A stretch of DNA of 64,000 bases, taken from contig NZ_AP024660.1 of the NCBI RefSeq assembly GCF_019977395.1, forward strand, positions 434,001 to 498,000, written 5' to 3'. How positions within the stretch are numbered: the stretch's first letter is position 1; each line of letters begins with the position of its first letter. The translations under genes and the position numbers were made by a program. The notes below the pieces were generated by a model. That model was not told the DNA's origin and did no database searches. It saw only the letters and a program-made list of their open reading frames with translations. The stretch comes from Arthrobacter sp. NicSoilC5 (GTDB taxonomy: Bacteria > Actinomycetota > Actinomycetes > Actinomycetales > Micrococcaceae). Below are positions 28,356-46,352 of the stretch, piece after piece.

Positions 28356-29795
28356 CTACTTCGGGTTGCTCAAAGTCCCGGATCTGAAGGTTTCTTCGAA
28401 CTCTTCGAGGCTGCGGCCTTGTGTCTCGGGTAGGTATTTGACGGTGAAGGCGATGGCAACGAATCCAATCACTGCGAACACGAGGAAGGTTCCGAATCCC
28501 ATCACTGCTACGAGCGGCGGGAAGACTAGGGCAACTGCAGCGTTCGTCAACCAAAGCACCAGAACAGACGCGCCGATCATGAGTCCACGCATGCGGAGGG
28601 GGAAGATTTCAGAAATCATGAGCCAGGCCAGCGGCCCGATTGTTGCCTGCATCATGGCGATGAACATGAGGATGAACGCTAGAAGGATCCAGGGGCGGAT
28701 CAGGCTGTCCTGGGGCACGAGGATGCCCACCAGCCCGACGCCGATGTGGGCTGTGGTTGTTCCAATGAATCCCGTGATCATCATGCTGCGGCGGCTGACG
28801 CGGTTGATGATGTAGAGCGCAACGAGCATGGGCAGGACAGATGCGACGCCGTTGAGAACATTGAAGCTGAGGGCGGCATTTCGGTCAAACCCTGCCTGTT
28901 CCAGGACTTGAGTGCCGTAGTACATCATCGAGTTGATGCCCGTGAGCTGTTGGAAGATACCGATGCCGAAGCCGATAAAGAGCAGGCGTCGGGTCCACGG
29001 CGTTGTGAGGACCTCTTTCCAGGAGCCGAGTCGCTCAAGTCGCTCCTCTTCAGCGAGTTCATGGACTTCCGCCATTTCAGCGGCCGCACGCTCAGGGGAG
29101 CGCATGGTTCGAAGAACTTCGTGGGCTTCGGCGTCCCGCCCCTGAGAGACCAGCCAGCGGGGGCTTTCCGGCATCCTAAGCATTCCGAAGAAGAGCACGA
29201 ATGCAGGTATGGCCGCCACTGAAAGCATGTAACGCCATACATCAGGGTTACTGCCGAACGTGTTGCCGATGATTGCGTTGATCAGGAAAGCCAGGAATTG
29301 GCCGGTGACGATCATGAGCTCGTTACGCGAAACCAGGCTGCCTCGTTTTTCGAAGGGTGCCACCTCGGCCAGGTACACGGGTACCGTCACGGATGCACCA
29401 CCAACTGCCAGGCCCAGGACGAACCTGAAGGCAAGCAGTACGTCAAAACGCAGTGAAAATACAGAGCCGGAGGTTCCGATGAAGAAGAGGACCGCGAGGG
29501 CAATGATGAAGCCCCGGCGGCCGTATCGGTCGGAAATTCGTCCGCCGAGGAAGGCGCCGGTTGCAGCGCCGATGAGCAGGACGAAAGTGACCAATCCTTC
29601 TTCCCAGGGAGTGATGTTGAAGTAGCTGCTTATGAAAGAAAGCGCTCCGTTGAGCACACCGGTGTCATAGCCAAAGAGAAGGCCGCCGAAGGTCGCGATG
29701 ACGGCTACCATCCCGAGACGTTTGTTGTAGCTCCCCTTTTCCAGTGGCGGCAAATGCCTGGTGCCGCGTTGAGGGATTGTGTCGAGATGTGCCAT
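28356..29795 (-). CDS. MFS sugar porter (inositol/sugar:H+ symporter type)
   Basis: A 479-residue transporter with 12 transmembrane segments and the sugar-porter signatures: FGGLLFGYDTGVLNGAL in TM1, GGRISDRYGRRGFI, PVYLAEVAPFEKRG, PESPRWLVSQGR, FQQLTGINSMMYYG and PETQGRSLEE near the C-terminus. It is closest in pattern to inositol and xylose porters. It follows the hydroxyquinol dioxygenase gene on the same strand with a 368-base gap. A sugar porter beside an aromatic ring-cleavage gene is unusual and suggests a polyol, cyclitol or glycoside substrate for this locus. Confidence 0.88.
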   Translation of the reverse strand: MAHLDTIPQRGTRHLPPLEKGSYNKRLGMVAVIATFGGLLFGYDTGVLNGALSFISSYFNITPWEEGLVTFVLLIGAATGAFLGGRISDRYGRRGFIIALAVLFFIGTSGSVFSLRFDVLLAFRFVLGLAVGGASVTVPVYLAEVAPFEKRGSLVSRNELMIVTGQFLAFLINAIIGNTFGSNPDVWRYMLSVAAIPAFVLFFGMLRMPESPRWLVSQGRDAEAHEVLRTMRSPERAAAEMAEVHELAEEERLERLGSWKEVLTTPWTRRLLFIGFGIGIFQQLTGINSMMYYGTQVLEQAGFDRNAALSFNVLNGVASVLPMLVALYIINRVSRRSMMITGFIGTTTAHIGVGLVGILVPQDSLIRPWILLAFILMFIAMMQATIGPLAWLMISEIFPLRMRGLMIGASVLVLWLTNAAVALVFPPLVAVMGFGTFLVFAVIGFVAIAFTVKYLPETQGRSLEEFEETFRSGTLSNPK

Positions 29796-30163
29796 GTCAG
29801 CGCTCCTTTAGAGTGCAGTCAGATGAAAATGATGGTCGCGTTTGGTTACGCCGTTGTCCACCGTTCGGTTGCCGTCCGCATTGGAAAACCAGATTCTGAA
29901 TCGGTGATCCCGCCAACCGAGGACCAGCTTCCTACGCCGAAAAAGGACGAAGATCCTTGTGGCGTCTTGGGCGTTACGCCTACCGGTGCCGGTGCGGATG
30001 GAGTGGAGCCGGCCTAAGTTGGGGGATCTGGCCTGAACGCCCGGGAACCGGGCTGGGAGCAGGGGTGCTTGTTCCCGGGCATTCGGCTGCTGTCTCCTTG
30101 CGGAGTCGGCGGCATTTGAACGCGACACCTGGTGGATGAACCACCAGGCAGGGTGGTGCGAAC
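29796..30163. other. Spacer with two inverted repeats between dioxygenase and porter
   Basis: No gene seen in 368 bases. GCCCGGGAAC-22 bases-GTTCCCGGGC is at 30039-30080. CCTGGTGG-ATGAA-CCACCAGG at 30128-30148 sits 16 bases beyond the dioxygenase stop and is a likely terminator or processing hairpin for that operon. Confidence 0.5.
30128..30148 (-). terminator. Hairpin after hydroxyquinol dioxygenase gene
   Basis: CCTGGTGG and CCACCAGG pair perfectly over 8 bp with a five-base loop, just past the stop codon at 30164. No U-tract; it may only attenuate transcription into the porter gene. Confidence 0.5.
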
Positions 30164-31096
30164 CTAGTCCGCTGCCGGCGGCAGGACGATGTCAAAGCGG
30201 GTCCGTGCCCAGGCATGTCCCCCGAGTTCGCGACCGTCGGGAGTGGGAGTACCCGGGTCCTGCTGTACGAAGTCTTTGATCAAGGACTCCTTGACGCCGA
30301 AGACGGTGTCGTATTTCAAAAGCTCATCGCCGCGGACAAAGATGTGGGTAACCAGGGTCCGAAGTCCGGGTTTGGTGACCATAAAGTGAAGGTGTGATGC
30401 GCGCATGGGGGAGCGGCCGACAGCTTCAAGCATCTTTCCGACCGGCCCGTCATGCGGAATGGGGTAGGGGGTCGGGGTCAGTCCCCAGAAGCGGTAGTTT
30501 CCGTCTTCGTCGCTGTAGAGGTGGGCGCGGCCGGAGACGCGCTGGTCGCTGTACTGGACGTCGTAGAAACCGTCTTCGTCGGCTTCCCATACCTCGATGC
30601 GGGCGTTGGGGACGGGGTTTCCGTCGGTGTCCTTGACCGTTCCTTCGACCCAGCAGGGTTCCCCCGGGGCTGCGCCGGCGATGTCTCCGCCGTTTTCAAT
30701 CCGGGGGGCATCTTCGACGAAGAAGGGTCCGAAGACTGTGGCTTCGGTGGCGTCACCGTAGGCTTCGTTGTTGACGTTGATGGTCTGCATCGATGCTCCG
30801 AAGACGTCTGAGAGCAGAATGAACTCTTGTCGCCGGTCGTCGGTTATGTGGCCGACGGCCGTAAGAAACTCGATGGCTTTGTTCCACTCTTCCTCTGTGA
30901 GCCTGACATCACGGATGAAGGCATGCAGGTGGGTTACGAGGGACTGCATCAGCTGCTTCAACCGGGGGTCCTGGCAGTCTTCGAATGAGCGCAGCACGTT
31001 GCGGACCAGTTGTTCCTCGACGTTTTGCTGGGCCGCGGACACCTGCCCGGAGCCGGGGGTGCTTTCGGTTTCTGGGACACGGGTTTGCTGGGTCAT
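30164..31096 (-). CDS. Hydroxyquinol 1,2-dioxygenase (intradiol)
   Basis: A 310-residue intradiol dioxygenase: N-terminal dimerisation helices ([39 protein letters not shown]), the barrel region [15 protein letters not shown], an iron-ligand Tyr in [12 protein letters not shown], another in the [12 protein letters not shown] loop, and the His-x-His pair in ASHLHFMV. The sequence pattern is that of hydroxyquinol rather than catechol dioxygenases, and a maleylacetate reductase lies in the same operon. It cleaves 1,2,4-trihydroxybenzene to maleylacetate. GAGGAA precedes ATG 31096. Confidence 0.9.
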
Positions 31097-31143
31097 TGTG
31101 GGTTCCTCGTTGTTGTTGTGATGTCGAGTATGCGGTCCGGGGC

Positions 31144-32082
31144 TTAGGTTTGCGATGCCTCGTCGAGCAGCTGCAGCTCCTTGTCACTCAACTGCAGATG
31201 CAGTGAGTCGAGAAGGGTGGAGAGCTGGACGGTGGTGCGTGCGCTGGCGATGGGGGCGGCCACTCCTTCCTGGGCGGCAAGCCAGGCCAGCGCGACGGAT
31301 GCCGGCTCGGTGGCGTGTTCTCCGGCAACGGCACGCACCGCTTCAATGACCTTCCGGCCCTGGGGGGTCAGGTACTTCTGCGCATCGGAGGCGCGGGGGC
31401 TTTCGATGTCTTCCTCGCCGGTGTATTTGCCGGTCAGGAATCCGTGCGCCAGGGAGTAGTAAGGCACGACGGCCAGACCGTGGGTGCGCGCCAAGGGCAG
31501 GATGTCGGCTTCTATGCCGCGTTCGACGAGGTTGTATTGGGGTTCAATCACCATGGGGGCATGGAAGCCTTCGTCGGCCGTGATGTTCAGCCAGTCTTCG
31601 ATCCGCTCCGCCGTGTAATTCGATATGCCGACGCAACGGACCTTGCCTTGGTCTACCAGCTCCGACATCGCCGCGATGCTCTCTACGAGGGGCGTGCTCG
31701 GGTCGTCGAAGTGGGCGTAGTAGATGTCGATGACATCGATGTCGAGCCGGGTCAGGGAGGCGTCGATGGCAGCTCGGATCGTCTCCGGGGCCAAACCGGC
31801 GAACTGCGGGTGGTGGCTTACCTTGGTGGCAATGACCAGGTCGTCGCGGTCGGACCGTCCCGCCAACCATTTCCCGATGATTGTCTCTGACTCTCCTCCG
31901 GAGTTACCTTCGGCCCAAAAGGAGTACGAATCAGCGGTGTCCAGGAAATTGCCACCACCGTTTACATAACCGTCGAGGACGGCATGCGATGTTTCGGTGT
32001 CTGCGGTCCATCCAAAGACATTCGTGCCGAGGGCCAATGGGGATACGGCTATTCCTGGGGCAATGGTCCTTTTGGTGACCAA
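31144..32082 (-). CDS. Aldo/keto reductase (hydroxyquinol locus)
   Basis: A 312-residue AKR barrel protein: N-terminal [13 protein letters not shown], catalytic Asp-Tyr pair in [14 protein letters not shown], Lys in VIATKVSHH, and the cofactor loop near ISNYTAERI and [17 protein letters not shown]. It reduces or oxidises a carbonyl/alcohol with NADP(H). It lies between the dioxygenase (47-base gap) and maleylacetate reductase genes, so it probably acts on a pathway intermediate such as a keto-sugar or keto-cyclitol; the substrate is unknown. Confidence 0.82.
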
Positions 32083-32212: not shown

Positions 32213-33292
32213 TTAGAAGGTGGGGTTAGCGCTCGGCGGCTTGCCTGCCCATGCTGCATGCAGAATGCCGCGGACATCATCGAAGGTGATCGGGCGGGGG
32301 TTGCCGTAGGACCGGCTGGTCACTTCTTCGGCGATGCGGTCGATGTCTTCTTCCTTCATGCCCAGCTCAGCAAGGGTGCGGGGAGCACCGAGTTCTCCGG
32401 CGATCTGCCACAGTCTCTCGGCGGGGTCTGCAGCCCCACCAAGGGCGCGGGACAAGGCGGCGGTAGCATCGGGGGCTGCCGGTTGGTTGAAGGCCAGAGC
32501 GTGGGGGAGAACGACCGTGTGGGTCTGGGCGTGCGGCAGGTTGAGGGTACCGCCCAGTGCGTGGCACAGCTTGTGGTGCAGGGACATCGTGGTGGCGCCA
32601 AGGCAGGCGCCACAAAGCCAGGAGCCGTAGAGGGCATTGCTTCGGGCTTCAGGGTCAGAGCTGTTGGCTACGATGGCCGGCAGCGCGGCTGCGAGTGCCC
32701 GGACGCCTTCCTCAGCCATCAACGAGATGATCGGTGTGGCATCAGGAGCGTAGAGGGCCTCCACAGCGTGGGCGATGGCATTGATGCCGCTGGTCACCGA
32801 CATGCCGGCAGGCAGGGTAGCTGTCAGTTCGGGGTCGTAAACGACGCTGCGGGGCAGGACCCGGGGATCCTTGCCTGTTTCTTTACGCCCGTCGGTCGTC
32901 AGCCCCCACACGGGGGTCATTTCTGATCCTGCGTAGGTGGTGGGTACGGCAACGATGGGCAGTCCATGTTTGAGTGCGATTGCCTTGCCGAGCCCGATGG
33001 CCGAGCCGCCGCCGACGGCTACGCAGCCGTCCGCACCGACCCTGGCGGCTTCGTCGCTGGCGCGCTGGGCTACCTCGTTCGGGACGTGCATGACAGCTTC
33101 GGGGAGCACCCCGACGCAGCGGTCACCGAGTGCCTGGGCCACCCGGTGGCCGGTGTCTTCCTGTTCCGGAGAGCAAAGGACCAGGACTCGCTTGAGCCCG
33201 ATCTGGTCGAGTTCCTCGGGCAGGGTTGCCAGGGAATTGACGCCGAAACGCACCCGCATGGGGAGGGCTTCGTACACAAACTGGTGGGTCAT
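32213..33292 (-). CDS. Maleylacetate reductase (iron-containing alcohol dehydrogenase family)
   Basis: A 359-residue protein with the Fe-ADH fold: nucleotide loop VAVGGGSAIGLGKAIA, PTTYAGSEMTPVWGLT, SGINAIAHAVEALYAP, HHKLCHALGGTLNLPHAQTHTVVLPHA with the conserved histidines. The pattern (short, AGSEMTP, LPHA) is that of maleylacetate reductases, which make beta-ketoadipate from maleylacetate with NADH. It fits directly after hydroxyquinol cleavage, and PcaIJ/PcaF across the locus finish the route. It lies 69 bases after the ABC permease gene. Confidence 0.9.
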   Translation of the reverse strand: MTHQFVYEALPMRVRFGVNSLATLPEELDQIGLKRVLVLCSPEQEDTGHRVAQALGDRCVGVLPEAVMHVPNEVAQRASDEAARVGADGCVAVGGGSAIGLGKAIALKHGLPIVAVPTTYAGSEMTPVWGLTTDGRKETGKDPRVLPRSVVYDPELTATLPAGMSVTSGINAIAHAVEALYAPDATPIISLMAEEGVRALAAALPAIVANSSDPEARSNALYGSWLCGACLGATTMSLHHKLCHALGGTLNLPHAQTHTVVLPHALAFNQPAAPDATAALSRALGGAADPAERLWQIAGELGAPRTLAELGMKEEDIDRIAEEVTSRSYGNPRPITFDDVRGILHAAWAGKPPSANPTF

Positions 33293-33361: not shown

Positions 33362-34603
33362 TTAGCGTGAGCCGGCGCGGCGCTTGTTGAAGATGTCGAA
33401 CGCGACGGCGAGCATCAGGACCAGGCCCTTGACGACGGACTGAACCGACTGGTCGATACCCATGAGCTGCATGCCGTTGCTCATCACGGCCATGATGAGA
33501 CCGCCGGCCATGGCGCCGACGACTTTGCCGACGCCGCCGGTAACGGCCGCGCCGCCGATGAACGCTGCAGCGATGGCGTCGAGTTCGAACATGTTGCCGG
33601 CTCCTGGCTGTGCGCCGTTGGAGCGGGAGGAGTAGACGATGCCGGCCACGGCGGACAGGAAGCCCATGTTCACGAAGATCCAGAAGTTGACGCTGCGGAC
33701 CTTGACGCCGGACAGGGCTGCGGCGACGCGGTTGCCGCCGATGGCGTAGACCTGACGGCCGAAGACGCTTCGCTGCATGATGACGCTGTAGACCATGATG
33801 AGGATGGCAAGCATGATCAGCACGACCGGCATGCCGCGGGCGATGGCCAGCTGCCAGGCGAAGACCATGACTGCGATGGCGATGACGAGGATTTTGGCGA
33901 TGAACAACGGAAATGATGGGACGACCTGGTTGTAGCCGATCAGGGTTTTGCGGGTCCGGTACTGGTTGAAGGCGTAGCCGATCACGGCTATGGCGAAGAT
34001 GAGGAGGGTGAAGATGTCGTATCCGGCGCCTCCCAGGAGGCCGTTGAGGAAGCCGGAAGCGATTTGGCCGTAGTCAGCGGGGAAGGGGGAGAGGGAGACG
34101 TTGTTCAGTACGACCAGGGTTAGGCCGCGGAAGAGGAGCATGCCTGCGAGGGTGACGATGAACGCCGGGATGCCGACGTAGGCGACCCAGTAGCCGTGCC
34201 AGGCTCCAATGGCCAGACCCGTGGCGAGGGCGGCGACGACGCCGACCCACCACGGTTGGCCGTGCTGGATCACGACGGTCGCCGAAACGGCGCCGGTCAG
34301 AGCTACGACCGAACCCACCGACAGATCGATGTGCCCTGCGATGATCACGATGACCATGCCGATCGCCAGGATCAGGATGTAGGAGTATTGCAGGACGATG
34401 TTGGTGATGTTTCCCGGGCCCAGCGAGGCGCCGCCGGTGAGCGCGGCGAACAGGGCCACGATCGCCACGAGCGCGATGTAGATCCCGCTGGTGCGCAGGT
34501 TACGGGTGAACAGCTCCCGGATTTCGCTGGTTCCGGTATTGACGACCGCTGCTGCGGCCGGCGCATCTTTCCTTTGGGATCCCCGGGGGGCTGTCACGGT
34601 CAT
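33362..34603 (-). CDS. Sugar ABC transporter permease (XylH/GguB-like)
   Basis: A 413-residue inner-membrane protein with about ten to twelve hydrophobic segments and the permease pattern of ribose/xylose-type systems: [29 protein letters not shown] near residue 85 and a C-terminal [40 protein letters not shown]. The GHIDLSVGS motif marks the BPD_transp_2 family used for monosaccharides. The start overlaps the ATPase stop (ATGA at 34603). Part of a three-gene uptake system placed at the head of the hydroxyquinol operon. Confidence 0.9.
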
Positions 34604-36138
34604 GCTGTGAGTTCCTTCTCTTTGGTCATGAGTGTCATGAGGCGTTCCTCGGAGGCTTCGGCCTTGGGTAGCTGGCCGGTGATTCGGCCTGCAGAAAGCG
34701 CGTAGATGCGGTCGCAGGTGCCGAGCAGTTCGAGCAGGTCCGAGGAGATGACCACGACTGCCTTTCCGGCGTCCACGAAGCTGTTGATGAGTGTGTAGAT
34801 TTCGTATTTCGCGCCGACATCAATGCCGCGGGTGGGTTCGTCCAGGATCAGTACCTCAGGGTCCGTGAGCAACCACTTCGAGAGCACGACTTTCTGCTGG
34901 TTCCCGCCGGAGAGTTTGCCGACGATCGATTTCACGTTGGGGGCCTTGATGTTCATCGATTTCATCGCGAACTCGGCAGCGCGCGCTTCTTCGTGATGGT
35001 TAACGAAGCCCCAGCTCGCCAGTTTTCCCAGTGCTGCGGCTGAGACGTTGCGGGCGATGTCGTCGATGAGGTTCAGGCCGAAGGCTTTGCGGTCTTCGGT
35101 GGCGTAGGCGATCCGGGCCTCGATGGCTGCGGCGACGGATCGGGTGTGGATCTCCTTGCCGTGCATGAAGACTTTGCCTGATACGTACTTGCCGTAGGAG
35201 CGGCCAAACAGACTCATCATCAACTCGGTGCGTCCGGCGCCCATGAGGCCGGCGATGCCGATGACCTCTCCGGCGCGGACTTCGAAGCTCGCCCCATCGA
35301 CGACCAGGCGGTCCTGGGTGGGGTGCTTGACTGTCCAGTCCTCCACCCGAAGAACGACCTCGCCCGGGTTTGAAACGCGGTCGGGGTAGAACGCTTCGAG
35401 GTCCCGGCCTACCATGCCGCGGATAATGCGGTCGACGTCCACGTCGGGATCTGCCATGTCCAGGGTTTCCACAGTCTTTCCATCCCGGATGACGGTGGTG
35501 TGGTCCGCAATCGCTTCAATCTCATTGAGTTTGTGAGAAATGATGATCGAGGTGATGCCACGATCGCGAAGCGCGCGGACCAGGTCAAGCAGGTGGGCGG
35601 AGTCATTGTCGTTGAGCGCAGCGGTCGGCTCGTCGAGGATAAGAAGCTGCACTTCCTTGGACAGTGCCTTAGCGATTTCGACCAGCTGCTGCTTGCCAAC
35701 GCCAAGCTGTCCGACGGGGGTGGTGGGCTCTTCCCGCAGACCGACGGACGCGAGGAGTTCGGCGGCCTCGGCGTTCGTCTTGTGCCAGTCGATCAGTCCT
35801 GAGGCTCCGCGGCGCTCGTTGCCCAGAAAGATGTTCTCGGCGATCGACAGGTCAGGCACGAGGGCCAGTTCCTGATGGATGATCACGATGCCGGCATGTT
35901 CTGAATCTCGGATGCCGGAAAAAGAACACGTCTGCCCCTTGAACAGGATGTCGCCCCCGTAGCTCCCGGCGGGGTAGACGCCGGAGAGGACTTTCATGAG
36001 GGTGGACTTGCCTGCACCGTTCTCGCCGCAGATGGCGTGGACCTCTCCGCGTTCCACAGCCAGCGAAACGCCGGACAGCGCTTTAACGCCGGGGAAGGTC
36101 TTAGTGATGGATTGCATTTCCAGGATGTGGTCGGCCAT
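34600..36138 (-). CDS. Sugar ABC transporter ATP-binding protein (XylG/GguA-like)
   Basis: A 512-residue double-domain ATPase. Domain 1: Walker [10 protein letters not shown] (about 34-42), signature-like [15 protein letters not shown], Walker [12 protein letters not shown]. Domain 2: degenerate Walker [11 protein letters not shown] (about 285), signature [15 protein letters not shown] and [19 protein letters not shown]. This layout is standard for monosaccharide importers. It energises uptake with the permease and the binding protein on either side. Confidence 0.92.
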
Positions 36139-37371: not shown

Positions 37372-37397
37372 CGTTCTCCTCCTTTGGAGAGCCGCGT

Positions 37398-37412
37398 GAC
37401 GCTTGAAGCGTC
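37398..37412. promoter_or_regulatory. 7-1-7 palindrome before the ABC operon
   Basis: GACGCTT-G-AAGCGTC, perfect, located in the leader of the substrate-binding protein gene. A repressor bound here would block the ABC-hydroxyquinol operon. Confidence 0.5.
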
Positions 37413-37552
37413 TGATCTGCTTCGGCCTTCGCCGAGCCTGAATTGGGGATGTGATTGCGAGCACTTAGTGCCGTACAATGGACATCATGTTCGCACAGTA
37501 CCAGCTATTGAAGCTAGTGGTGTTCCAAATTACATTTCGACGGGCCAGTTGA

Positions 37553-37572: not shown

Positions 37573-37678
37573 GAGGGCAGCGAACATCCTTGACTTGAAG
37601 GAGTCAGGCGCGGCGCATCCGCGCGAGCGATGACGCGAGTGCTAACTGTCCCGGGAGGGGCAAGAAAAGAGGCGGTTG

Positions 37679-39286
37679 GTGAACACCATTCAGCTGTTGA
37701 TGAAGGCCAGCCAGGTCATAGACGAACTGGCTCGAATCGGCCAATCAACACCGGCGGAACTGGCCAAAGTAGTGTCCGAGCCCCGGCCGACCGTTTATCG
37801 GATCGTCGCAGCCCTGGAGCAGGAGAAGCTCGTACGGTCGGGCGGTGACGGCAAACTTGAGCTGGGGACTGGAATTCTCAAGCTTGGTGACGCTGCGGCG
37901 GACGCCCTTGTGGACCGCTCAGAGCTGCGGTCGCAGCTGCGGTGGGTCCGCGGGCAGCTTGGCATGAGCGCGTTTTTCTGCGTGCTGCGGGAGTACGGCG
38001 CTGTTTGCCTGGATCAGATCCAAGGGGCGGACGTTGACCTGCTCGGCCTTGCGCCGGGTCGCACCCTCCCTCTGCACGCTGGCGCCGCACCGCAGGCGCT
38101 GCTTGCGTTTGGGTCACCCGAATTCCGCGAGTCCGTGCTGGCCTCGGGGCCATACCCGAGCATCGCTTCACAGACACCGCTGTCCGGCGAACAGTTGCGG
38201 GAAAGAGTGGACCGCACGGCCCGCCGCGGATGGAGCGTTGAGGACAGCGAGGTCATCGAGGGCGTTGCCTCAATCGCCGTTCCTGTGTTCCGCCGGGACG
38301 GCACTCTGCTTGGGGCCATGTCCGTCGCCGGCCTTCGCGCTAATGTCCAGGGGCAGGAAGAGAGAGCTCATCGGATACTCAATGCCGCCGCCAAGACCAT
38401 CGCGGCCTCCATGGCGCAGGAAGACCCCAACGACACGCGGGACGCTTCGCGTCTGGATCCTCCCGAAGGCTCTGAACGGGACTCGCCGCGCGCGCCCGCA
38501 GTAATCGCCAAAGCCAGCGCATTGATGAACGCTCTCGCCGAGGAACGGATTGCCACCTCTACCCGGCTGACGGAACTTCTCGAGGAACCCCCGAGTTCGG
38601 TCTATCGAATGTTGGCCACCCTGGCGGAAGCCGGCTGGGTGGAACAGATCGGACACCGCGGGGCGTACCGCATCGGAAGCAAGCTGCTGTCCCTCTCCAG
38701 CGAACTTACCCAGCGCTTGGATATTCGTCGCGCAGCGGCTCCTGTCCTGCGCGAAATCCATGCAAAGACGGGGGAGACGACCTTCTTGTGCATCCGCAGC
38801 GCTACGCGGGCTGTCTGCATCGAGCGTATCGATGGGATAAGGGTCAACAGCAGGGTCCTGAAACTCGGCGAGTCCCTTCCACTGCATGTCGGCGCGGCAC
38901 CCCGGGCCTTGCTCGCGTTCGAGGACCGCTCGTCCTGGGACGAATACGCAGCAATTGTTGCCAACAGCGGAGAGCCCTGGCGAGATGTCAGAACCCGATC
39001 CGAGTTCTATTCAGGCCTGGAGCAGATCCGGGGCCAGGGCTTTGTGATCAGCGATAACAATGTGACCCCGGGAATCGCGGCCATCGGAGCCCCTGTCTTT
39101 GACCATCGCGGTGGGGTAGCCGCCTCCTTGTCTGTCAGTGGCCTTCGCGAGGGCATGCTGTCCCAGCCGGTGGGCGCTGAACCTATCGTCGATCTCGTCC
39201 TCGCGGGGGCCCGCGCGTTGTCCGAGTACCTTGGGGCGCCGGCTGTAGCCAAAGCGGATGCAGACGTGTCACATGTCATAGCTTGA
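37679..39286 (+). CDS. Tandem (double) IclR-family regulator, paralog 2
   Basis: A 535-residue protein with two IclR units. Unit 1: IQLLMKASQVIDELARIGQSTPAELAKVVSEPRPTVYRIVAALEQEKLVR and effector part GAVCLDQIQGADVDL...GVASIAVPVFRRDGTLLGAMSVAGL. Unit 2 from about residue 285: LMNALAEERIATSTRLTELLEEPPSSVYRMLATLAEAGWVEQIGHRGAYRIGSK and ATRAVCIERIDGIRVNSR...GIAAIGAPVFDHRGGVAASLSVSGL. It aligns along its whole length with the 26285-27871 protein, so the fusion predates their duplication. GTG 37679 (AGAGG six bases upstream) is preferred over TTG 37676. It heads the plus-strand operon and faces the ABC operon. Confidence 0.88.
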   Translation: MNTIQLLMKASQVIDELARIGQSTPAELAKVVSEPRPTVYRIVAALEQEKLVRSGGDGKLELGTGILKLGDAAADALVDRSELRSQLRWVRGQLGMSAFFCVLREYGAVCLDQIQGADVDLLGLAPGRTLPLHAGAAPQALLAFGSPEFRESVLASGPYPSIASQTPLSGEQLRERVDRTARRGWSVEDSEVIEGVASIAVPVFRRDGTLLGAMSVAGLRANVQGQEERAHRILNAAAKTIAASMAQEDPNDTRDASRLDPPEGSERDSPRAPAVIAKASALMNALAEERIATSTRLTELLEEPPSSVYRMLATLAEAGWVEQIGHRGAYRIGSKLLSLSSELTQRLDIRRAAAPVLREIHAKTGETTFLCIRSATRAVCIERIDGIRVNSRVLKLGESLPLHVGAAPRALLAFEDRSSWDEYAAIVANSGEPWRDVRTRSEFYSGLEQIRGQGFVISDNNVTPGIAAIGAPVFDHRGGVAASLSVSGLREGMLSQPVGAEPIVDLVLAGARALSEYLGAPAVAKADADVSHVIA

Positions 39287-39439
39287 CCCGCCGCCCCGTC
39301 CGTGACATGCTTCCGGACAGGGTGTCCACTAGGTGACACTGAAACTCAATTTCTCGGCGTGACAGACATCGCTTACCGAACCTGCACGCCCACCACCGAA
39401 ATCGCACCAACCTGGGTGCTCAGTCGAAGGAGACAAGCG

Positions 39440-40522
39440 TTGGAACCGATCGTCGTAGGACTCTTAGGAATCACACACCCGCACGCTTCTGCCCGGGTTC
39501 GCGCCCTGCGTGAAATCGAGGGCGTTGAGGTACTCGCAGCCGCTGACGAGGATTCCCGGCTGAAATACTTCACCGATAAGTACGATATGGAGCCGCGCGA
39601 CATCGATTCGCTGCTCCAGGATGAGCGCATCAACGCGATCATGGTCCACTCCAAGAGCAAGGACATGGTTCCCCACGCGCTCCGGGCCCTCGCCGCCGGC
39701 AAATCCGTCGTCGTCGAAAAGCCCGGCGGAGGCACCGTCGAGGACCTCGAGCGGTTGGCCGAGGCCGAAGCCAAAGCCGCCCCCGGCCTCGTTGTGCAGG
39801 TCGGTTACAACGTGCGCCTCGCACAGTCCATCGCCGAGGCCAAGAAGCTAATCGCGGACGGCGTCATCGGTGAAGTCGTCTCGGTATCCGCCCGCGGCGC
39901 CGCCCTCGTCGGTGAACACCTGACCGCGCACCTGAACCAACCCGCGGACATGGGCGGCGCCCTCTGGATCATCGGATGCCACATGCTTGACTCCCTGGTC
40001 CACATGTTCGGCGCCCCCGACTCGGTCAACGCGCGCGTCCACAAGTCCGGCCGCCTCTCGGATGAGAAGAGCCGCGAGGACTCTGCCGCCGTCCTGCTGA
40101 ACTACCCGGACATGTCGGTGACCTTCAGCTTTGACGGACACGACCACCTTGAGTGGTTCGAAAGCTCCAGGGTCTCCGTCTACGGGACGGGCGGCATGCT
40201 CGAAATCGGCATACTGCCCCAGAAACTCCGCGTGTACGTGGACCAGGACCGCGCCGGGTGGCGGGCCGGATGGACCGAATGGACCCAGAGCTACTTCACC
40301 CCGCCCTTCGCCCGGACCGAACTCAATAAGTTCTCGGAACTTCCGGAACTGGAAAACATCAGCAACTTTCACCCTGAGATGCGCGGCTGGGTCGACAGCA
40401 TCCGCACAGGCGCGCCGGTCGTCGCGCCCGTCGCTGATGCCCTTGCCGTCGCCCGGATCGTTGAGGCATGCTACCGCTCCGAGAAGGAGCAGGGAGCATC
40501 CGTCGAGGTCGAGAGCGCATGA
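39440..40522 (+). CDS. Gfo/Idh/MocA-family oxidoreductase 1
   Basis: A 360-residue NAD(P)-dependent dehydrogenase: N-terminal Rossmann part IVVGLLGITHPHASARVRAL, the VVVEKPGGGTVEDLERL motif with the EKP lysine (about 93-95), and C-terminal GALWIIGCHMLDSLVHMFG with the conserved DxxxH-like region. The family oxidises sugars, cyclitols or glycosides, often at C3 or at an inositol hydroxyl. Start TTG 39440 has GAAGGAG seven bases upstream; no ATG fits. First structural gene after the tandem IclR. The nucleotide loop lacks the usual GxGxxG (GLLGITHPHA), as in some secreted-sugar or DHP-type members. Confidence 0.82.
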   Translation: MEPIVVGLLGITHPHASARVRALREIEGVEVLAAADEDSRLKYFTDKYDMEPRDIDSLLQDERINAIMVHSKSKDMVPHALRALAAGKSVVVEKPGGGTVEDLERLAEAEAKAAPGLVVQVGYNVRLAQSIAEAKKLIADGVIGEVVSVSARGAALVGEHLTAHLNQPADMGGALWIIGCHMLDSLVHMFGAPDSVNARVHKSGRLSDEKSREDSAAVLLNYPDMSVTFSFDGHDHLEWFESSRVSVYGTGGMLEIGILPQKLRVYVDQDRAGWRAGWTEWTQSYFTPPFARTELNKFSELPELENISNFHPEMRGWVDSIRTGAPVVAPVADALAVARIVEACYRSEKEQGASVEVESA

Positions 40523-40542
40523 ACTCCCAGAACGAGGAAACC

Positions 40543-41409
40543 GTGACTCCACAGCTAATTGCCACCTGCTGGGTGAGTGCAGGGGACACCGCCCCCGGCC
40601 TCCCGGACGAGACCAGCCCCATCCCGATCGAGGAGCGCATCGAACTGATCGCCCAGACCGGATGGTCCGGCATCGGTTTGGTGCACCACGACCTGCTGCA
40701 GGCCCGCCGAACCATCGGCTACGCCGAACTCTCCCGGATCATCCGCGAGGCAGGAATCGACATCGTCGAGGTGGAGTTCCTGAACGGCTGGTGGACCACC
40801 GGTGCCGAGCGCGCCGAATCCGACATCCAGCGCGCCGAATTGTTTGAAGCCGCGAAGGCCCTGGGCGCGCGGCACATCAAGGTCGGAGCCGGCGAGACAG
40901 ACAACCCTCTTCCGCTGTCGACGATGGCCAGCGCCTTCGCTGATTTGGCGGACGAAGCTGCCGAATCCGGCATACGGCTGGCACTGGAGGCCACGCCTTT
41001 CTCCCACCTGCGCACAACCCAGGAAGCGGTCAAGGTCGTCACACACTCCGACAGCCCGGCCGCGGGTCTGATGATCGATATCTGGCACACCCACAGGTCA
41101 GGACTCTCACATGACGACCTCTGGGACGTCGTACCCATGGACAGGGTTTTCGCCGTGGAAATCGATGACGGACACAAGGACGTCGTCGGCAGCCTCTTCG
41201 AAGACACCATCAACAACCGCGCCTACTGCGGCGAAGGGGACTTCGACACCCGCAGGTTCATCCGACGAACACTGGATGCCGGATACAAGGGCCCCTGGGG
41301 TGTGGAGATTATCTCCGCCGAACACCGCAGCCTCCCCGTAGCGGAGGGCCTCAAACGAGCCTATGAGACCGCCATGAACTGCTTCCCCAGTACCGTAAAC
41401 GCCCGCTGA
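40543..41409 (+). CDS. Sugar phosphate isomerase/epimerase-family TIM barrel (IolE/IolH-like)
   Basis: A 288-residue AP-endonuclease-2-type barrel beginning TPQLIATCWVSAGDTAP. Metal-site elements are spread as in this family: VEVEFLNGWW, HIKVGAGE, LALEATPFSHLRT, LMIDIWHTHRSG, FAVEIDDGHK and GPWGVEIISAEH. Relatives include inosose dehydratase, tagatose epimerases and enzymes that beta-eliminate 3-keto-glycosides. GTG 40543 with GAGGAAACC just upstream is preferred; ATG 40519 overlapping the previous stop is possible. Between two dehydrogenases, a dehydratase or eliminase acting on a keto-cyclitol or keto-glycoside is likely. Confidence 0.8.
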   Translation: MTPQLIATCWVSAGDTAPGLPDETSPIPIEERIELIAQTGWSGIGLVHHDLLQARRTIGYAELSRIIREAGIDIVEVEFLNGWWTTGAERAESDIQRAELFEAAKALGARHIKVGAGETDNPLPLSTMASAFADLADEAAESGIRLALEATPFSHLRTTQEAVKVVTHSDSPAAGLMIDIWHTHRSGLSHDDLWDVVPMDRVFAVEIDDGHKDVVGSLFEDTINNRAYCGEGDFDTRRFIRRTLDAGYKGPWGVEIISAEHRSLPVAEGLKRAYETAMNCFPSTVNAR

Positions 41410-41499: not shown

Positions 41500-42513
41500 A
41501 TGTCCAACGACAAGCGCCTGCGTCTGGCCCTTTTCGGCTCCGGCCGCATCGGGCAGGTACATGCACGCAACATCGCAGCACACCCGAACATCGATCTCGT
41601 CCTGATCGCTGACCCCTTCATCGACGGGGCACGCCGTCTGGCGGAAAGCACCGGTGCACTCGCTGTGCAGGACCCCGAAGAAGTCTTCGCAGACACCAGT
41701 CTGGACGGGGTCATCATCGGCTCGCCCACCAGCACTCACGTGGACCTTATTTCCCGCTCGGTAGCCCGAGGCCTTGCCGTGCTCTGCGAAAAGCCCATCG
41801 ATCTGGATATCGACACCGTCCTCGCGTGCCGCGAACAGATCAAAGACTCCACTGTCCCCATCATGCTCGGGTTCAACCGGCGCTTCGATCCCTCCTTCGC
41901 TGCTGTCCGCGCCAGGGTGGAAGCCGGAGAAATCGGCAAGCTGGAACAGCTCACCATCACCAGCCGCGACCCCGAGCCAGCGCCACGGGACTACATCGCC
42001 GGATCAGGCGGCATCTTCAGGGACATGACGATCCACGACCTGGACATGGCCCGTTCCTTTATCCCGAACATCGTCGAAGTCTCCGCAGTGGCGTCCAACG
42101 TCTTCAGCAAAGACATCGAAGAGCTTAACGACTTCGATTCCGCCGTAGTGACTCTGCGCGGCAGCGAAGGCGAGCTCATCACCATTACCAACTCCCGTCA
42201 CTGCGCTTTCGGCTACGACCAGAGGCTGGAAGCATTCGGGCCGGACGGCATGCTCTCGGCGGCCAACGTCGCGCCCACCACCGTCCGCAAATCCGGTGCC
42301 AAAGGTACAGAAGAAGCTGACGCCTACTACCCCTTCTTCCTCGAACGCTACCCGCAGGCCTACTACGCAGAGCTGGATGCATTCGCGCACTCCATCCGGA
42401 GCGGGGCAACCACCTCACCGAGTTTCGCCGACGGGGTTTCCGCCCTGATCCTGGCGAACGCGGCAGCAGAATCCGCCGTCACCGGCAAAACTGTGAGCGT
42501 CGTCGAGCTCTAG
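41500..42513 (+). CDS. Gfo/Idh/MocA-family oxidoreductase 2, inositol 2-dehydrogenase-like
   Basis: A 337-residue protein with the full family pattern: LALFGSGRIGQVHARNIAAHP (GxGxxG), VLCEKPIDLDIDT with the catalytic EKP, IMLGFNRRFDPSFAAV, and GGIFRDMTIHDLDMARSF with the Asp and His of the active site. This is the IolG pattern, which oxidises myo-inositol to 2-keto-myo-inositol or related cyclitols with NAD. It lies 90 bases after the isomerase gene and is followed by a strong hairpin. The actual cyclitol or sugar is unproven. Confidence 0.83.
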   Translation: MSNDKRLRLALFGSGRIGQVHARNIAAHPNIDLVLIADPFIDGARRLAESTGALAVQDPEEVFADTSLDGVIIGSPTSTHVDLISRSVARGLAVLCEKPIDLDIDTVLACREQIKDSTVPIMLGFNRRFDPSFAAVRARVEAGEIGKLEQLTITSRDPEPAPRDYIAGSGGIFRDMTIHDLDMARSFIPNIVEVSAVASNVFSKDIEELNDFDSAVVTLRGSEGELITITNSRHCAFGYDQRLEAFGPDGMLSAANVAPTTVRKSGAKGTEEADAYYPFFLERYPQAYYAELDAFAHSIRSGATTSPSFADGVSALILANAAAESAVTGKTVSVVEL

Positions 42514-42521
42514 CACTCCAC

Positions 42522-42651: not shown

Positions 42652-42900
42652 ATGGCAACCGGTAAATGGGCCTGGACTGTCAGCGAAGGCGACGTCGTCG
42701 CATGGGCTGACAGGAAGCAGCGCCTCCACGGAACAGTCGTGGAAGCTGCACCCGAGCTCGGCGTCGCATGGATCATCGACATCGTATACGGGGAACGCCA
42801 CATGGTGATGATGCAGGATCTCCTTCCTGAATCCCCGGCTGCCCCCGGATTCGCCGTCCCGTTGTCTCAGTTTCAGGCGCCTCAACGGCCGACAAGCTAA
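42652..42900 (+). CDS. Small SH3-like protein, divergent member
   Basis: An 82-residue protein with AAGGAGACCC directly before ATG 42652. The segment WTVSEGDVVAWADRKQRLHGTVVEAAPELG followed by an alternating hydrophobic strand resembles the GDxV hairpins of the two other small proteins in this window (11750 and 60981), but similarity is low. It lies past a terminator hairpin within a catabolic locus, as they do. No catalytic motif; function unknown. Confidence 0.65.
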   Translation: MATGKWAWTVSEGDVVAWADRKQRLHGTVVEAAPELGVAWIIDIVYGERHMVMMQDLLPESPAAPGFAVPLSQFQAPQRPTS

Positions 42901-42968
42901 TAAGAATCCGGGGTAATTCGGCACCTTCCCATCACTGAGAAGCACCACGAGAAAGAAACGAACCCCTA

Positions 42969-43655
42969 GTGAAAGTCTTTAGCTCTCCGGCCGTCAAAAA
43001 GGCCCTCGATGAAGTCATCGATCTGTTCCAACAGGCAACATCAGTCGACGTTAAGGCTGTCTTTGAGCCAACAGGCCAGCTGCTTGGACGCATAGAAGCC
43101 CGTGAACCGTTCGATGCGATGATCGCGGTAAGCGGCTCGTTCGCGTCGTTGGGGCCCGTAATCGATGCCAGTACCCTGACACCTGTGGCTCGCGCCGGCA
43201 TCGGTGTCGCCGTCAACGGCGGCACTTCAGCTCCTGACATCTCGACGGCCGAATCCTTCATCAAGACCATCCGCGGCGCCAGGTCGGTAGCCTACTCCGG
43301 TATCGGAGCCAGCGGAGCCTACTTCGCGACACTGCTGGAAGTCCTGGGCCTCAGCGAAGAAGTCGGCTCCCACGCCACCATCGTCAAAAAGGGTTACGTC
43401 GCCGAAGCCGTCGTGGACGGCACCGCGGATATAGCAATCCAGCAGCTCAGCGAACTGCTGTTCGTACCCCAAGCCCACATCGTCGGTCCACTGCCCCCCG
43501 AGTTCCAGCACTACACAGAATTCTCTGCGGCAGTAAGCGCCGACTCCACTACACCAGTGGAAGCGCAGTCCTTCGTATCCTTCCTAGCCTCCCCGGCAGC
43601 ACAAGCCAAATACCTGCAAACGATGCTCGAACTGCCAACGGCCCCCGGCAAATAG
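42969..43655 (+). CDS. ModA-like substrate-binding protein without signal peptide
   Basis: A 228-residue protein related to periplasmic molybdate/type 2 binding proteins (ModA): MKVFSSPAVKKALDEVIDLFQQATSVDVKAVFEPTGQLLGRI and ARSVAYSGIGASGAYFATLLEVLGL, then TADIAIQQLSELL. It lacks any signal peptide or lipobox, and no ABC partner genes are present. Several catabolic clusters carry such cytosolic ModA-like proteins, some annotated as enzymes or sensors; its role here is open. GTG 42969 has only a weak ribosome site (AGAAAG). It lies between the small SH3-like gene and the thiolase. Confidence 0.75.
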   Translation: MKVFSSPAVKKALDEVIDLFQQATSVDVKAVFEPTGQLLGRIEAREPFDAMIAVSGSFASLGPVIDASTLTPVARAGIGVAVNGGTSAPDISTAESFIKTIRGARSVAYSGIGASGAYFATLLEVLGLSEEVGSHATIVKKGYVAEAVVDGTADIAIQQLSELLFVPQAHIVGPLPPEFQHYTEFSAAVSADSTTPVEAQSFVSFLASPAAQAKYLQTMLELPTAPGK

Positions 43656-43751
43656 AGCGCCCTTCCGGAGCTGACCTTCCAGGCCCGGCCGAAACGGCCC
43701 ACCGCCGACATTTTGTCTTCTCCACCATGACAGCGAAAAGAGACAACCCCG

Positions 43752-44966
43752 ATGAACCAGGCTTTTGTGTACGACGCTGTGCGCACCCCCTTTGGAAAGT
43801 TCGGCTCCGGCCTCGCCGCCGTCCGCCCGGACGACCTTGCTGCGCACGTGATCAAGGAATCCGTCAAGCGGGCGCCGTCCCTCGACGTCGAGCGGATCGA
43901 TGAGGTGGTGTTCGGCAACGCCAACGGTGCCGGTGAGGAGAACCGCAACATCGCCCGGATGGGCACGCTGCTGGCCGGGCTCCCGGTTTCCATCCCGGGC
44001 ACCACGGTGAACCGGCTCTGCGGGTCCTCCCTGGATGCCGCCATTATTGCCTCCCGCCAGATCAATGCCGGTGATGCCGACCTGATGTTGGTCGGTGGCG
44101 CCGAGTCGATGTCCCGCGCGCCCTGGGTGCTGCCGAAGACGGAGAAGCCGTATCCGGCCGGGGACATGACCCTGGCGTCCACGACGCTGGGCTGGCGCCT
44201 GGTGAACAAGGCGATGCCGAAGGAGTGGACCATCTCCCTGGGCGAGGCCACCGAGAGGCTCCGCGAGAAGTACGGCGTGACCCGGGAGGCGCAGGATGAG
44301 TTCGCCGCTGCCTCGCACAACCTGTCCGCGGCCGCCTGGGACGAGGGCTTCTACGACAACCTGGTCGCCCCGGTGCCGGGCACGGACCTGGTGCGCGACG
44401 AGGGCATCCGGGCGGGTTCTTCGGCGGAGAAGCTCGCCGGGCTCAAGACCGTGTTCCGGGCAGAGAACGGCACGGTCACCGCGGGGAACGCGTCCCCGTT
44501 GTCCGACGGCGCCTCCGCGGCCTGGATCGGGTCCGAGGCGGCCGCGGGGCTGCTGGGCCTGGACCCGCTGGCGCGTATCGCCGGGCGTGGCGCGCACGCC
44601 AACGATCCGCAGTACTTTGGCTACGCCCCGGTCGAGGCGGCGAACAAGGCCCTCGAAAAGGCGGGCATCGGCTGGGAGCAGGTGGGCGCTGTCGAACTTA
44701 ACGAAGCGTTCGCCGCGCAGTCCCTGGCCTGCATCAACGCCTGGGGCGTCGACCACTCGATCGTGAACCGGCACGGCGGGGCGATTGCCATGGGCCACCC
44801 GCTGGGTGCTTCCGGGACCCGGATCCTGGGCACCCTGGCCCGGTCCCTGCAGGCCTCCGGCGAACGCTGGGGTGTCGCTGCGATCTGCATCGGCGTGGGC
44901 CAGGGCCTGGCCGTCGTGCTCGAAAACGTGACCGCCGCCGGAACCAACACTGGAAAGGACCAGTAA
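43752..44966 (+). CDS. pcaF: Beta-ketoadipyl-CoA thiolase
   Basis: A 404-residue thiolase of the PcaF type: YDAVRTPFGKFGSGLAAVRPDDLAAH at the start, nucleophile Cys in VNRLCGSSLDAAII (about 90), VELNEAFAAQSLA with the His-containing region, GGAIAMGHPLGASGTRI with the catalytic His, and CIGVGQGLAVVLE with the second Cys. It splits beta-ketoadipyl-CoA into succinyl-CoA and acetyl-CoA. TAATG overlap with pcaI shows coupling. It completes the hydroxyquinol route. Confidence 0.92.
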   Translation: MNQAFVYDAVRTPFGKFGSGLAAVRPDDLAAHVIKESVKRAPSLDVERIDEVVFGNANGAGEENRNIARMGTLLAGLPVSIPGTTVNRLCGSSLDAAIIASRQINAGDADLMLVGGAESMSRAPWVLPKTEKPYPAGDMTLASTTLGWRLVNKAMPKEWTISLGEATERLREKYGVTREAQDEFAAASHNLSAAAWDEGFYDNLVAPVPGTDLVRDEGIRAGSSAEKLAGLKTVFRAENGTVTAGNASPLSDGASAAWIGSEAAAGLLGLDPLARIAGRGAHANDPQYFGYAPVEAANKALEKAGIGWEQVGAVELNEAFAAQSLACINAWGVDHSIVNRHGGAIAMGHPLGASGTRILGTLARSLQASGERWGVAAICIGVGQGLAVVLENVTAAGTNTGKDQ

Positions 44967-45655
44967 TGCTGAACTTCGTAGATTCGGTCCAGGACGCCGT
45001 CGCCGGCATCAAGGACGGCTCCACCGTGATGATCGGCGGGTTCGGCAACGCCGGCCAGCCGTTCGAACTGATCGACGCGCTGCTGGAGTGCGGCGCCACG
45101 GACCTGACCGTGGTGAACAACAACGCCGGCCAGGGGGATCAGGGCCTGGCCCTGCTGATCAAGGAGGGCCGGGTGAAGAAGATGATCTGTTCCTTCCCGC
45201 GGCAGTCCGATTCCTGGCATTTCGACGCCAAGTACAAGGCCGGCGAGATCGAGCTCGAACTCGTCCCGCAGGGCAACCTCGCCGAACGCATCCGCGCCGC
45301 GGGGGCCGGGATCGGCGGGTTCTTCACCCCCACCGGCTACGGCACCATGCTCGCCGAGGGCAAGGAAACCCGGATCATCGACGGCCGCGGCCACGTGTTC
45401 GAAACCCCCATCCACGCCGACGTCGCCCTCATCAAGGCCCTGAAGGCTGACGGCAAGGGCAACCTCGTCTACCGCAAGACCGCCCGGAACTTTGGCCCCA
45501 TCATGGCAGCGGCCGCGAAGCACACCATCGTCCAGGTCTCCGGGATCGTGCCCACCGGGGCGCTGGACCCGGAGAACGTGGTCACCCCGGGCATCTACGT
45601 CAACAGCATCGTCAAAGTTGCCGGGAGCGGCAGCACAGCAGGAAAGGCGGCCTGA
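44966..45655 (+). CDS. pcaI: 3-oxoadipate CoA-transferase subunit A
   Basis: A 229-residue alpha subunit of a class I CoA-transferase: VMIGGFGNAGQPFELIDALLE (oxyanion GGFG motif), NNNAGQGDQGLALLIKEGRVKKMICSFPR, and GGFFTPTGYGTMLAEGKE. With PcaJ it moves CoA from succinyl-CoA to beta-ketoadipate. ATG 44966 overlaps the thiolase stop by one base; GGAAAGGAC precedes it. Confidence 0.92.
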   Translation: MLNFVDSVQDAVAGIKDGSTVMIGGFGNAGQPFELIDALLECGATDLTVVNNNAGQGDQGLALLIKEGRVKKMICSFPRQSDSWHFDAKYKAGEIELELVPQGNLAERIRAAGAGIGGFFTPTGYGTMLAEGKETRIIDGRGHVFETPIHADVALIKALKADGKGNLVYRKTARNFGPIMAAAAKHTIVQVSGIVPTGALDPENVVTPGIYVNSIVKVAGSGSTAGKAA

Positions 45656-45656
45656 C

Positions 45657-46352
45657 ATGAGCGTGCAGTCCAACGAAAAGTCCCTCCAGACCTCGGCGAC
45701 GCCCCTGGGCCGGGATGACCTGGCCCGGCTGGTGGCAAAGGACATCGCCCCCGGGTCCTTCGTGAACCTCGGCATCGGCCAGCCCACCCTGGTGTCCAAC
45801 TACCTCACCGAGGACCAGAACATCACCCTCCACACGGAGAACGGGATGCTGGGCATGGGCCCGGAAGCCAAGGGCGACGAGATCGACGAGGACCTGATCA
45901 ACGCCGGCAAGATCCCCGTCACCGAACTCCCGGGCGCGTCCTACTTCCACCACGCCGACTCGTTCGCGATCATGCGCGGCGGGCACCTGGACATCTGCGT
46001 CCTGGGCGCCTTCCAGGTCTCCGCCACCGGCGACCTCGCCAACTGGCACACCGGCGCACCCGGGGCGATTCCCGCCGTCGGCGGTGCCATGGACCTGGCC
46101 ACCGGCGCCAAGGACGTCTTCGTGATGATGACCCTCCTGACCCGCGAAGGCGCATCCAAGATCGTGGACGCCTGCACCTACCCCATCACCGGCGTCGGCT
46201 GCGTCACCCGCGTCTACACGGACAAAGCCATCTTCCTCACCGGCCCGGACGGCGTCACCGTCCGCGAAACCTTCGGCTGCACCCTCGAGGAACTCCAGGA
46301 CCTGGTACCCGTCCCGCTCAAGGCCACGCCCGGTGCCATGGATCAAAGGTAA
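45657..46352 (+). CDS. pcaJ: 3-oxoadipate CoA-transferase subunit B
   Basis: A 231-residue beta subunit: LVAKDIAPGSFVNLGIGQPTLVSNYL, the catalytic glutamate in LHTENGMLGMGP (about 63), GGHLDICVLGAFQVS and ASKIVDACTYPITGVGCVTRVYTD. One base after the pcaI stop, with GGAAAGGCGG upstream of ATG 45657. Last gene of the plus-strand operon of the hydroxyquinol locus. The frame is open further upstream, but that is overlap with pcaI. Confidence 0.92.
   Translation: MSVQSNEKSLQTSATPLGRDDLARLVAKDIAPGSFVNLGIGQPTLVSNYLTEDQNITLHTENGMLGMGPEAKGDEIDEDLINAGKIPVTELPGASYFHHADSFAIMRGGHLDICVLGAFQVSATGDLANWHTGAPGAIPAVGGAMDLATGAKDVFVMMTLLTREGASKIVDACTYPITGVGCVTRVYTDKAIFLTGPDGVTVRETFGCTLEELQDLVPVPLKATPGAMDQR

Follow-up and report, generated by a model that had tools for sequence, protein, structure and literature searches.

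The 64,000-nucleotide window analysed here, taken from the 4.69 Mb, single-contig genome of Arthrobacter sp. NicSoilC5, contains between positions 28356 and 46352 a divergent locus that combines dehydrogenases of the inositol type with enzymes of hydroxyquinol (1,2,4-trihydroxybenzene) cleavage. The minus strand carries a sugar porter family MFS transporter (28356..29795; TIGR00879, 365 bits against a cut-off of 237.8), a hydroxyquinol 1,2-dioxygenase (HQDO; 30164..31096; PDB 1tmx, E 8e-146) that is the sole copy in the host genome in a search at E<=1e-50, and a maleylacetate reductase (MAR; 32213..33292; PDB 3w5s and 3hl0), so that the two enzymes of the lower hydroxyquinol pathway stand in one gene group. 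These are joined by a monosaccharide ABC importer made up of a GguB-type permease (33362..34603; NF040906, 510.5 bits, cut-off 450), a GguA-type ATP-binding protein (34600..36138; NF040905, 820.3 bits, cut-off 810) and a ChvE-type substrate-binding protein (36211..37464; NF040907, 465.5 bits, cut-off 460), the real start of the last probably lying further inside the listed open reading frame (ORF). On the plus strand follow a tandem double IclR regulator (37676..39286; two stretches each of PF01614 and PF09339), the Gfo/Idh/MocA protein GfoC (39440..40522, for which we chose a TTG start following AAGGAG), a TIM barrel of the AP_endonuc_2 family (40519..41409) and IolG, of the inositol 2-dehydrogenase family (41500..42513; TIGR04380, 373 bits, cut-off 355). 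The gene content, its conservation, the shared operator-like sites and the retained residues described below are direct observations, and on balance we consider it probable that the locus encodes an actinobacterial pathway from a cyclitol to hydroxyquinol and on to its breakdown.

The TIM barrel had been described in the initial annotation as an 'IolE-type' isomerase/dehydratase. We rejected this assignment, as the protein is absent from the host genome's matches to the IolE model TIGR04379 (E<=1e-3) and its best curated model is instead QuiC (NF042435), matched over the N-domain only at 70 bits, below the cut-off of 1200 for the two-domain model; the host genome's full-length QuiC-like protein scores 556 bits on the same model. 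The nearest paralogue in the host genome is likewise QuiC-like, and the TIM profile retrieves QuiC1 from the PDB at 1e-17 and IolI at 1e-9. Glu134, Asp165, His168, Arg210 and Glu239 of QuiC1 are kept in all 62 TIM rows (61 distinct proteins). Differences from the QuiC1 active site are Ser206 to Thr, Gln191 to Glu and changes at Arg64, Leu97 (an invariant Lys) and Leu136, and the fused HPPD-like domain is missing. Judged by its sequence, the protein resembles the aromatising 3-dehydroshikimate dehydratase QuiC, with metal ligands and the catalytic histidine in common, and we propose it as a keto-cyclitol dehydratase/aromatase.

Corynebacterium glutamicum carries this gene set too, likewise divergently arranged: there, an IclR gene (cg3388/ihtR) and oxiC-cg3390-oxiD-oxiE (cluster iol2) stand opposite iolT2-rhcM2D2. 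The window holds the counterparts of IclR, OxiC, cg3390 and OxiD in this order, MAR, HQDO and a sugar porter running the opposite way, with identities decreasing from GfoC, the OxiC counterpart (75%), through HQDO (72%) and IolG, the OxiD counterpart (68%), to the TIM barrel, the cg3390 counterpart (63%). The sugar porter corresponds to IolT2, which sits beside the same genes. Features of the window that the C. glutamicum locus does not share are an ABC importer, an aldo/keto reductase (AKR), Pca genes and a MAR of another clade; OxiE, in turn, is not encoded at the window locus. In the published passages on C. glutamicum, OxiD oxidises myo- and D-chiro-inositol, OxiE oxidises scyllo- and myo-inositol, IolT2 imports inositols, and OxiC, which is missing the catalytic Asp, has no inositol dehydrogenase activity (PMC9603128). 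Inositol contacts of OxiD are known from docking, and the residue numbers given there land on the named residues in the C. glutamicum locus (L076) (PMC9603128). By alignment, the window IolG retains all of K94, D153, H175, Y235 and Y280. GfoC may serve a second redox step or act as a partner of the TIM barrel.

A scan of named genomes returned 34 loci (designated L005 onwards), in 15 of which (L005-L019) the TIM barrel is at least 60% identical to that of the window. In all 15, the IclR, GfoC, TIM and IolG genes follow in the same order. Since this holds across genera (Pseudarthrobacter, Arthrobacter, Sinomonas, Rhodococcus, Mycobacterium, Paeniglutamicibacter and Corynebacterium), the arrangement is more than chance; importer genes and the AKR vary between loci. 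The TIM barrel of L005 (Pseudarthrobacter enclensis) is identical to that of the window. HQDO is visible in 13 of the 15; the copy of L012 lies about 5 kb past the fetched stretch, and L007 ends at a contig end. The locus is rare, as a phylum sample of 396 genomes yielded only the host genome and two weak matches (E<=1e-30). The TIM type occurs in 13 of 395 Micrococcaceae genomes (at least 60% identity) and 4 of 242 Corynebacterium genomes (E<=1e-50). Two further loci, L088 and L089, come from two genera other than that of the window and combine a TIM barrel of 47-48% identity with MAR (64-65%), HQDO (83% and 47%) and ABC importer genes of the sugar type; a BLAST comparison revealed no Gfo/Idh protein between TIM and MAR/HQDO, and a zinc-dependent alcohol dehydrogenase (Zn-ADH) and a short-chain dehydrogenase/reductase (SDR) stand where other loci have Gfo/Idh proteins. 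The constant core across the loci is the TIM barrel, MAR, HQDO and some dehydrogenase. From a reading of the sequences, L088 and L089 both also carry a PrpF-like protein beside this core. The Corynebacterium locus L078 (genome G447) has kept the sugar porter, the regulator, GfoC, the TIM barrel and two IolG genes, and neither MAR nor HQDO is present at it; an HQDO remains elsewhere in that genome, next to a flavin adenine dinucleotide (FAD) hydroxylase (L127).

The regulator of the window is 46% identical to its C. glutamicum counterpart, Cg3388/IhtR. The latter represses rhcM2 and, by inference in that study, iolT2-rhcM2D2; in the passages available, 1,2,4-trihydroxybenzene interferes with its binding to DNA above 0.05 mM, as do hydroquinone (above 0.5 mM) and indole (above 4 mM), while inositol and resorcinol hardly affect it (PMC7764795). 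A GGACA-N3-TGTTC dyad in the divergent promoter region (37480..37492, plus strand) recurs in 21 of 21 divergent regions (the window, L006-L019 and L076-L081; L005 and L082-L087 not included), with a match in a fraction of 0.0003 of simple shuffles, and in C. glutamicum it falls inside the intergenic region bound by Cg3388/IhtR in gel shifts. This candidate site is likely to be the operator of the IclR regulator. A perfect palindrome of the form GGACA-N3-TGTCC (GGACAGGGTGTCC, 39315..39327) precedes GfoC in 15 of the 21 loci, with none in L014, L018 and four Corynebacterium loci, and is likely a second, candidate operator for the dehydrogenase/TIM operon. Single imperfect sites mean little, as a one-mismatch pattern gives 16 matches in the window against 3.8 expected, several of them within genes. 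In the host genome, the 22-base form with up to three mismatches gave three matches, two of them at the locus with the second at 28023-28035, and a reversed-pattern control gave five, so that only the perfect match is telling. No operator-like site was found in L088, L089 or the second C. glutamicum HQDO locus (L107). A second double IclR gene (26285-27898) adjoins the sugar porter, has its own GGACA-N3-TGTTC site upstream (28023-28035) and may control the acetoacetate-CoA ligase, Amidohydro_2 and SDR genes at 22329-26003.

The initial annotation had stated that no hydroxylase or monooxygenase is present, and our scans agree with it: those proteins of the interval that were scanned include no monooxygenase, and a hidden Markov model (HMM) of FAD hydroxylases found no match in the 64 kb, for which reason a resorcinol-type operon was rejected. 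A resorcylate decarboxylase route via the Amidohydro_2 gene at 24314 was also rejected, its neighbours being the acetoacetate-CoA ligase and SDR genes, with no FAD hydroxylase in the window. HQDO was matched in each of the 22 TIM genomes searched; in G003 the match is a fragment at a contig end, and the G447 copy lies outside the locus. Within a family sample of 295 genomes, HQDO is present in 12 of 12 with the TIM barrel as against 26 of 283 without it (Fisher test, relatedness ignored). We fetched 40 stretches around HQDOs, two of them TIM-linked and 38 without a TIM barrel, the latter covering 36 of 41 non-TIM dioxygenase places together with L107 and L127, which came from the HQDO search of TIM genomes. 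An FAD hydroxylase lies within 4 kb of HQDO in 23 of these 38 regions (score >150), with three more weak matches (53-60), in contrast to none of 21 TIM-linked HQDO loci within the sequence seen. At least 3.5 kb could be seen on both sides of HQDO in nine of the 21 (a duplicate stretch, L085, brings L010 into this group) and in 37 of the 38 comparison regions; for loci seen in this way the contrast is 0 of 9 against 23 of 38 (Fisher p 0.0016, relatedness ignored), and it is partly circular as the HMM was built from 15 hydroxylases of the comparison regions. The 21 loci exclude L005, which closely copies the window, the duplicates L083-L086, and L007, L012, L078 and L082, whose stretches contain no dioxygenase; some of the 21 are closely related, and MAR is identical in L017 and L087. 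Other oxygenase classes were not found by Pfam among nine single neighbour proteins of some loci, three of which had no match at all.

In the MAR tree, 19 of 22 TIM-linked sequences, including that of the window, fall in one clade (100/100) that holds only TIM-linked rows. The remaining three belong to Corynebacterium and are placed next to the MAR of L107 (99/92), so that MAR was exchanged in that genus and the arrangement kept. Among the rows listed, the HQDO tree intermixes TIM-linked and other kinds, with poorly supported forks.

Further genes complete the interval. The AKR (31144..32082, minus strand; PF00248) is accessory, being present in the Micrococcaceae loci and absent from those of Rhodococcus, Mycobacterium and Corynebacterium. 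Downstream of IolG on the plus strand are a possible 82-aa gene with a good ribosome-binding site and no Pfam match (42652-42900), an SBP_bac_11 family protein (42969..43655; PF13531), which the initial annotation does not list and which also lies between IolG and PcaF in L005-L007, and a PcaF-like thiolase (43752..44966), best named 3-oxoadipyl-CoA thiolase although it scores 437 on that model against a cut-off of 605. PcaI-type (44966..45655; TIGR02429) and PcaJ-type (45657..46352; TIGR02428) subunits A and B of a 3-oxoacid CoA-transferase follow, both over their cut-offs, the start of PcaJ having been picked within the ORF 45492-46352. Every other component listed in the initial annotation (the divergent ABC importer and sugar porter, two Gfo/Idh/MocA proteins, AKR, HQDO, MAR, PcaIJ and PcaF) is indeed present. 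No operator-like site lies in the 300 bases upstream of PcaF, the SBP_bac_11 gene or the window sugar porter; the Pca genes were therefore rejected as part of the regulon and may be ordinary neighbours.

We propose the following route. A cyclitol would be brought in by the sugar/inositol importer and oxidised at one hydroxyl to a ketone by the OxiD-type dehydrogenase IolG in an NAD+-dependent step. The QuiC-like TIM barrel, presumably metal-dependent, would then remove water and turn the ring into aromatic 1,2,4-trihydroxybenzene; should the loss of two waters be required, it could expel both, or one could be lost spontaneously. HQDO would open the ring to maleylacetate, MAR would reduce this to 3-oxoadipate and PcaIJ/PcaF-type enzymes would finish the degradation, with hydroxyquinol lifting the IclR repressor. 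Atom counting bears out the arithmetic of the initial annotation, in which a deoxyinositol (quercitol) oxidised once and dehydrated twice gives trihydroxybenzene. A conduritol would need one oxidation and one dehydration, and an inositol three dehydrations and no net oxidation. A deoxyinositol is the favoured substrate, as the simplest atom fit, although conduritol also fits. Myo-inositol probably does not use the aromatising route: as the main substrate it is disfavoured by the published essentiality of iolD (PMC9603128), which in turn favours a deoxyinositol, and by an IolD match over cut-off in 15 of 16 genomes, that in the sixteenth (G003) being cut by a contig end. A chemical precedent exists in the acid dehydration of inosose to 1,2,3,4-tetrahydroxybenzene (PMC11467972).

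Of the known systems, the quinate/shikimate route (QuiC, QsuB, AsbF) is similar in that a metal-dependent TIM barrel aromatises a keto-cyclitol by dehydration. The substrate expected here is without the carboxylate, in keeping with the replacement of QuiC Arg64 and the invariant Lys at Leu97, and the product would be hydroxyquinol instead of protocatechuate. Our strong hypothesis is that a cyclitol is aromatised by loss of water, as happens to quinate, but by another enzyme subfamily acting on another substrate class to give another product. The classical myo-inositol pathway (IolG, IolE, IolD) begins alike, with an IolG-family dehydrogenase. It differs in that its IolE is not matched by the window TIM barrel and in that the IolD gene of the host genome lies away from the locus; the proposed route would also aromatise the ring and leave its opening to a dioxygenase, where the classical one hydrolyses it. 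The resorcinol/hydroxyquinol operons (the rol operon of C. glutamicum and relatives) share HQDO and MAR, whereas the place of their frequent FAD hydroxylase is taken here by the cyclitol dehydrogenase and the TIM barrel.

Distant TIM barrels (37-46% identity, L020-L038) occur in other cyclitol-like gene settings, which supports action of the family on keto-cyclitols. In L023, the neighbours include IolD (above its cut-off), an aldolase of the HpaI type and a binding protein of the rhizopine type that scores below its cut-off. In Rhodococcus ruber (L027), the TIM barrel lies with a class III aminotransferase, a Gfo/Idh protein, an aldehyde dehydrogenase and a thiamine enzyme, a possible set for aminocyclitol degradation. 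In two Propionibacteriaceae loci (L037, L038), two IolG-type genes adjoin a thiolase, with a CoA-transferase, acyl-CoA dehydrogenase, enoyl-CoA hydratase and an HpaB-family protein (possibly 4-hydroxybutyryl-CoA dehydratase) in L037 and electron transfer flavoprotein (ETF) genes in L038; these may represent an alternative degradation of the same ring.

Against the proposed route it must be weighed that 12 of the 21 TIM-linked loci are seen on one side only, which slightly lowers confidence, and that an IolE homologue, below its cut-off, accompanies the distant TIM barrel in L031 and L034, leaving room for an isomerase role. The locus might also serve two neighbouring jobs under one switch, namely scavenging of inositol isomers (importer, OxiD/OxiE and an isomerase) and breakdown of hydroxyquinol that is imported or made by a hydroxylase elsewhere, with plant material supplying both. 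We regard this as unlikely, though less so than the readings that follow. That OxiD and IolT2 act on inositols, that genes of both iol clusters rise on myo-inositol in the passages available (PMC9603128), and that the regulator responds to hydroxyquinol and not to inositol would all suit it, as would the 10 FAD hydroxylase-type proteins encoded elsewhere in the host genome. IolD genes at or within about 7 kb of L012, L015, L016 and L017 (four of the 15 named loci, assuming the same contigs in both searches) and an IolB-family gene adjoining HQDO in L086, a duplicate stretch of L017, fit a cyclitol substrate but also two neighbouring jobs. However, in a strain deleted for cg3390 and all seven dehydrogenase genes, growth on the three inositols comes back once iolG, oxiD or oxiE is returned singly (PMC9603128), so that cg3390 and oxiC are dispensable for myo-, scyllo- and D-chiro-inositol. 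In L088 and L089, moreover, the TIM barrel adjoins MAR and HQDO, the GfoC-TIM-IolG operon has its own site in most loci, and no FAD hydroxylase was seen near TIM-linked HQDO. The TIM barrel might instead be an IolI-like inosose isomerase that feeds unusual inositol isomers into the normal iol pathway, the hydroxyquinol genes being separate. Against this, the strain without cg3390, given iolG or oxiD, grows on D-chiro-inositol as fast as the control (PMC9603128). The profile is also closer to QuiC1 than to IolI, and the close TIM type tracks HQDO, which together make an isomerase improbable.

A Gfo/Idh/MocA protein paired with an AP_endonuc_2 protein is also the make-up of DgpA/DgpC-type and levoglucosan systems, and the initial annotation had offered a hydroxyquinol aryl glycoside as the other substrate. 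The Gfo/Idh proteins would then oxidise the sugar and the TIM barrel cut by beta-elimination, as in the 3-keto-glycoside systems, leaving hydroxyquinol as the aglycone. The ChvE-type importer and a weak match of GfoC to DgpA (2e-9, among many others) are compatible with this. DgpABC/CarABC systems are defined by a small DgpB-type partner and by enzymes for the sugar half; Pfam showed neither in the locus proteins nor in the ORF 42652-42900, the scan otherwise covering ORFs of at least 150 aa, and no DgpC-named chain is among the seven PDB sequences matched by the TIM profile. Because OxiD, the orthologue of the window IolG, is a true inositol dehydrogenase whose docked inositol contacts are all kept, and because L088 and L089 carry Zn-ADH and SDR, the glycoside reading is weakened, and we judge it as improbable as the isomerase.

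Returning to the conversion of a cyclitol to hydroxyquinol, this central idea of the initial annotation has gained from the conservation, the shared operator-like sites, the resemblance of the TIM barrel to QuiC, the C. glutamicum data and the fact that no hydroxylase lies close by, while the reaction of the TIM barrel and its substrate are the parts that we infer. Its claim to novelty holds for the route, for which we found no published proposal in the open-licence literature, nor 'quercitol' and 'hydroxyquinol' together, but not for the gene set, already mapped in C. glutamicum. The published C. glutamicum data bracket the idea with the ends left unjoined: a single-pathway function for the locus is not proposed in the published passages, and the word 'hydroxyquinol' is absent from PMC9603128.

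Elsewhere in the window, a RuBisCO-like protein, a sugar-kinase-type protein (PF07005/PF17042), a Zn-ADH, a KdgT permease and a GntR regulator at 54961-60865 look like an acid sugar catabolic cluster. At 12603-19949, pyruvate phosphate dikinase (PPDK)-type ATP-binding and mobile domains are encoded as separate genes adjoining carboxylase subunits (biotin carboxylase, PYC_OADA and a biotinyl domain) and a HAD hydrolase.

More broadly, we lean, if narrowly, towards the view that aerobic actinobacteria, C. glutamicum included, break down neutral cyclitols, with quercitols or other deoxyinositols as the likeliest, via hydroxyquinol into the 3-oxoadipate pathway with no ring hydroxylase. If true, this would join sugar-alcohol and aromatic catabolism and, next to quinate/shikimate, be the second route of catabolism that leads from a saturated carbocycle to an aromatic. 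A one- or two-enzyme route from a cyclitol to 1,2,4-trihydroxybenzene would also be at hand, where the passages of a review describe its production from myo-inositol by multi-step synthesis (PMC11467972). It would give functions to the unexplained C. glutamicum genes cg3390 and oxiC and to the second copies rhcM2 and rhcD2, and would explain why an inositol transporter gene lies under a hydroxyquinol-sensing repressor. Quercitols and similar plant cyclitols would thereby have a fate in soil.

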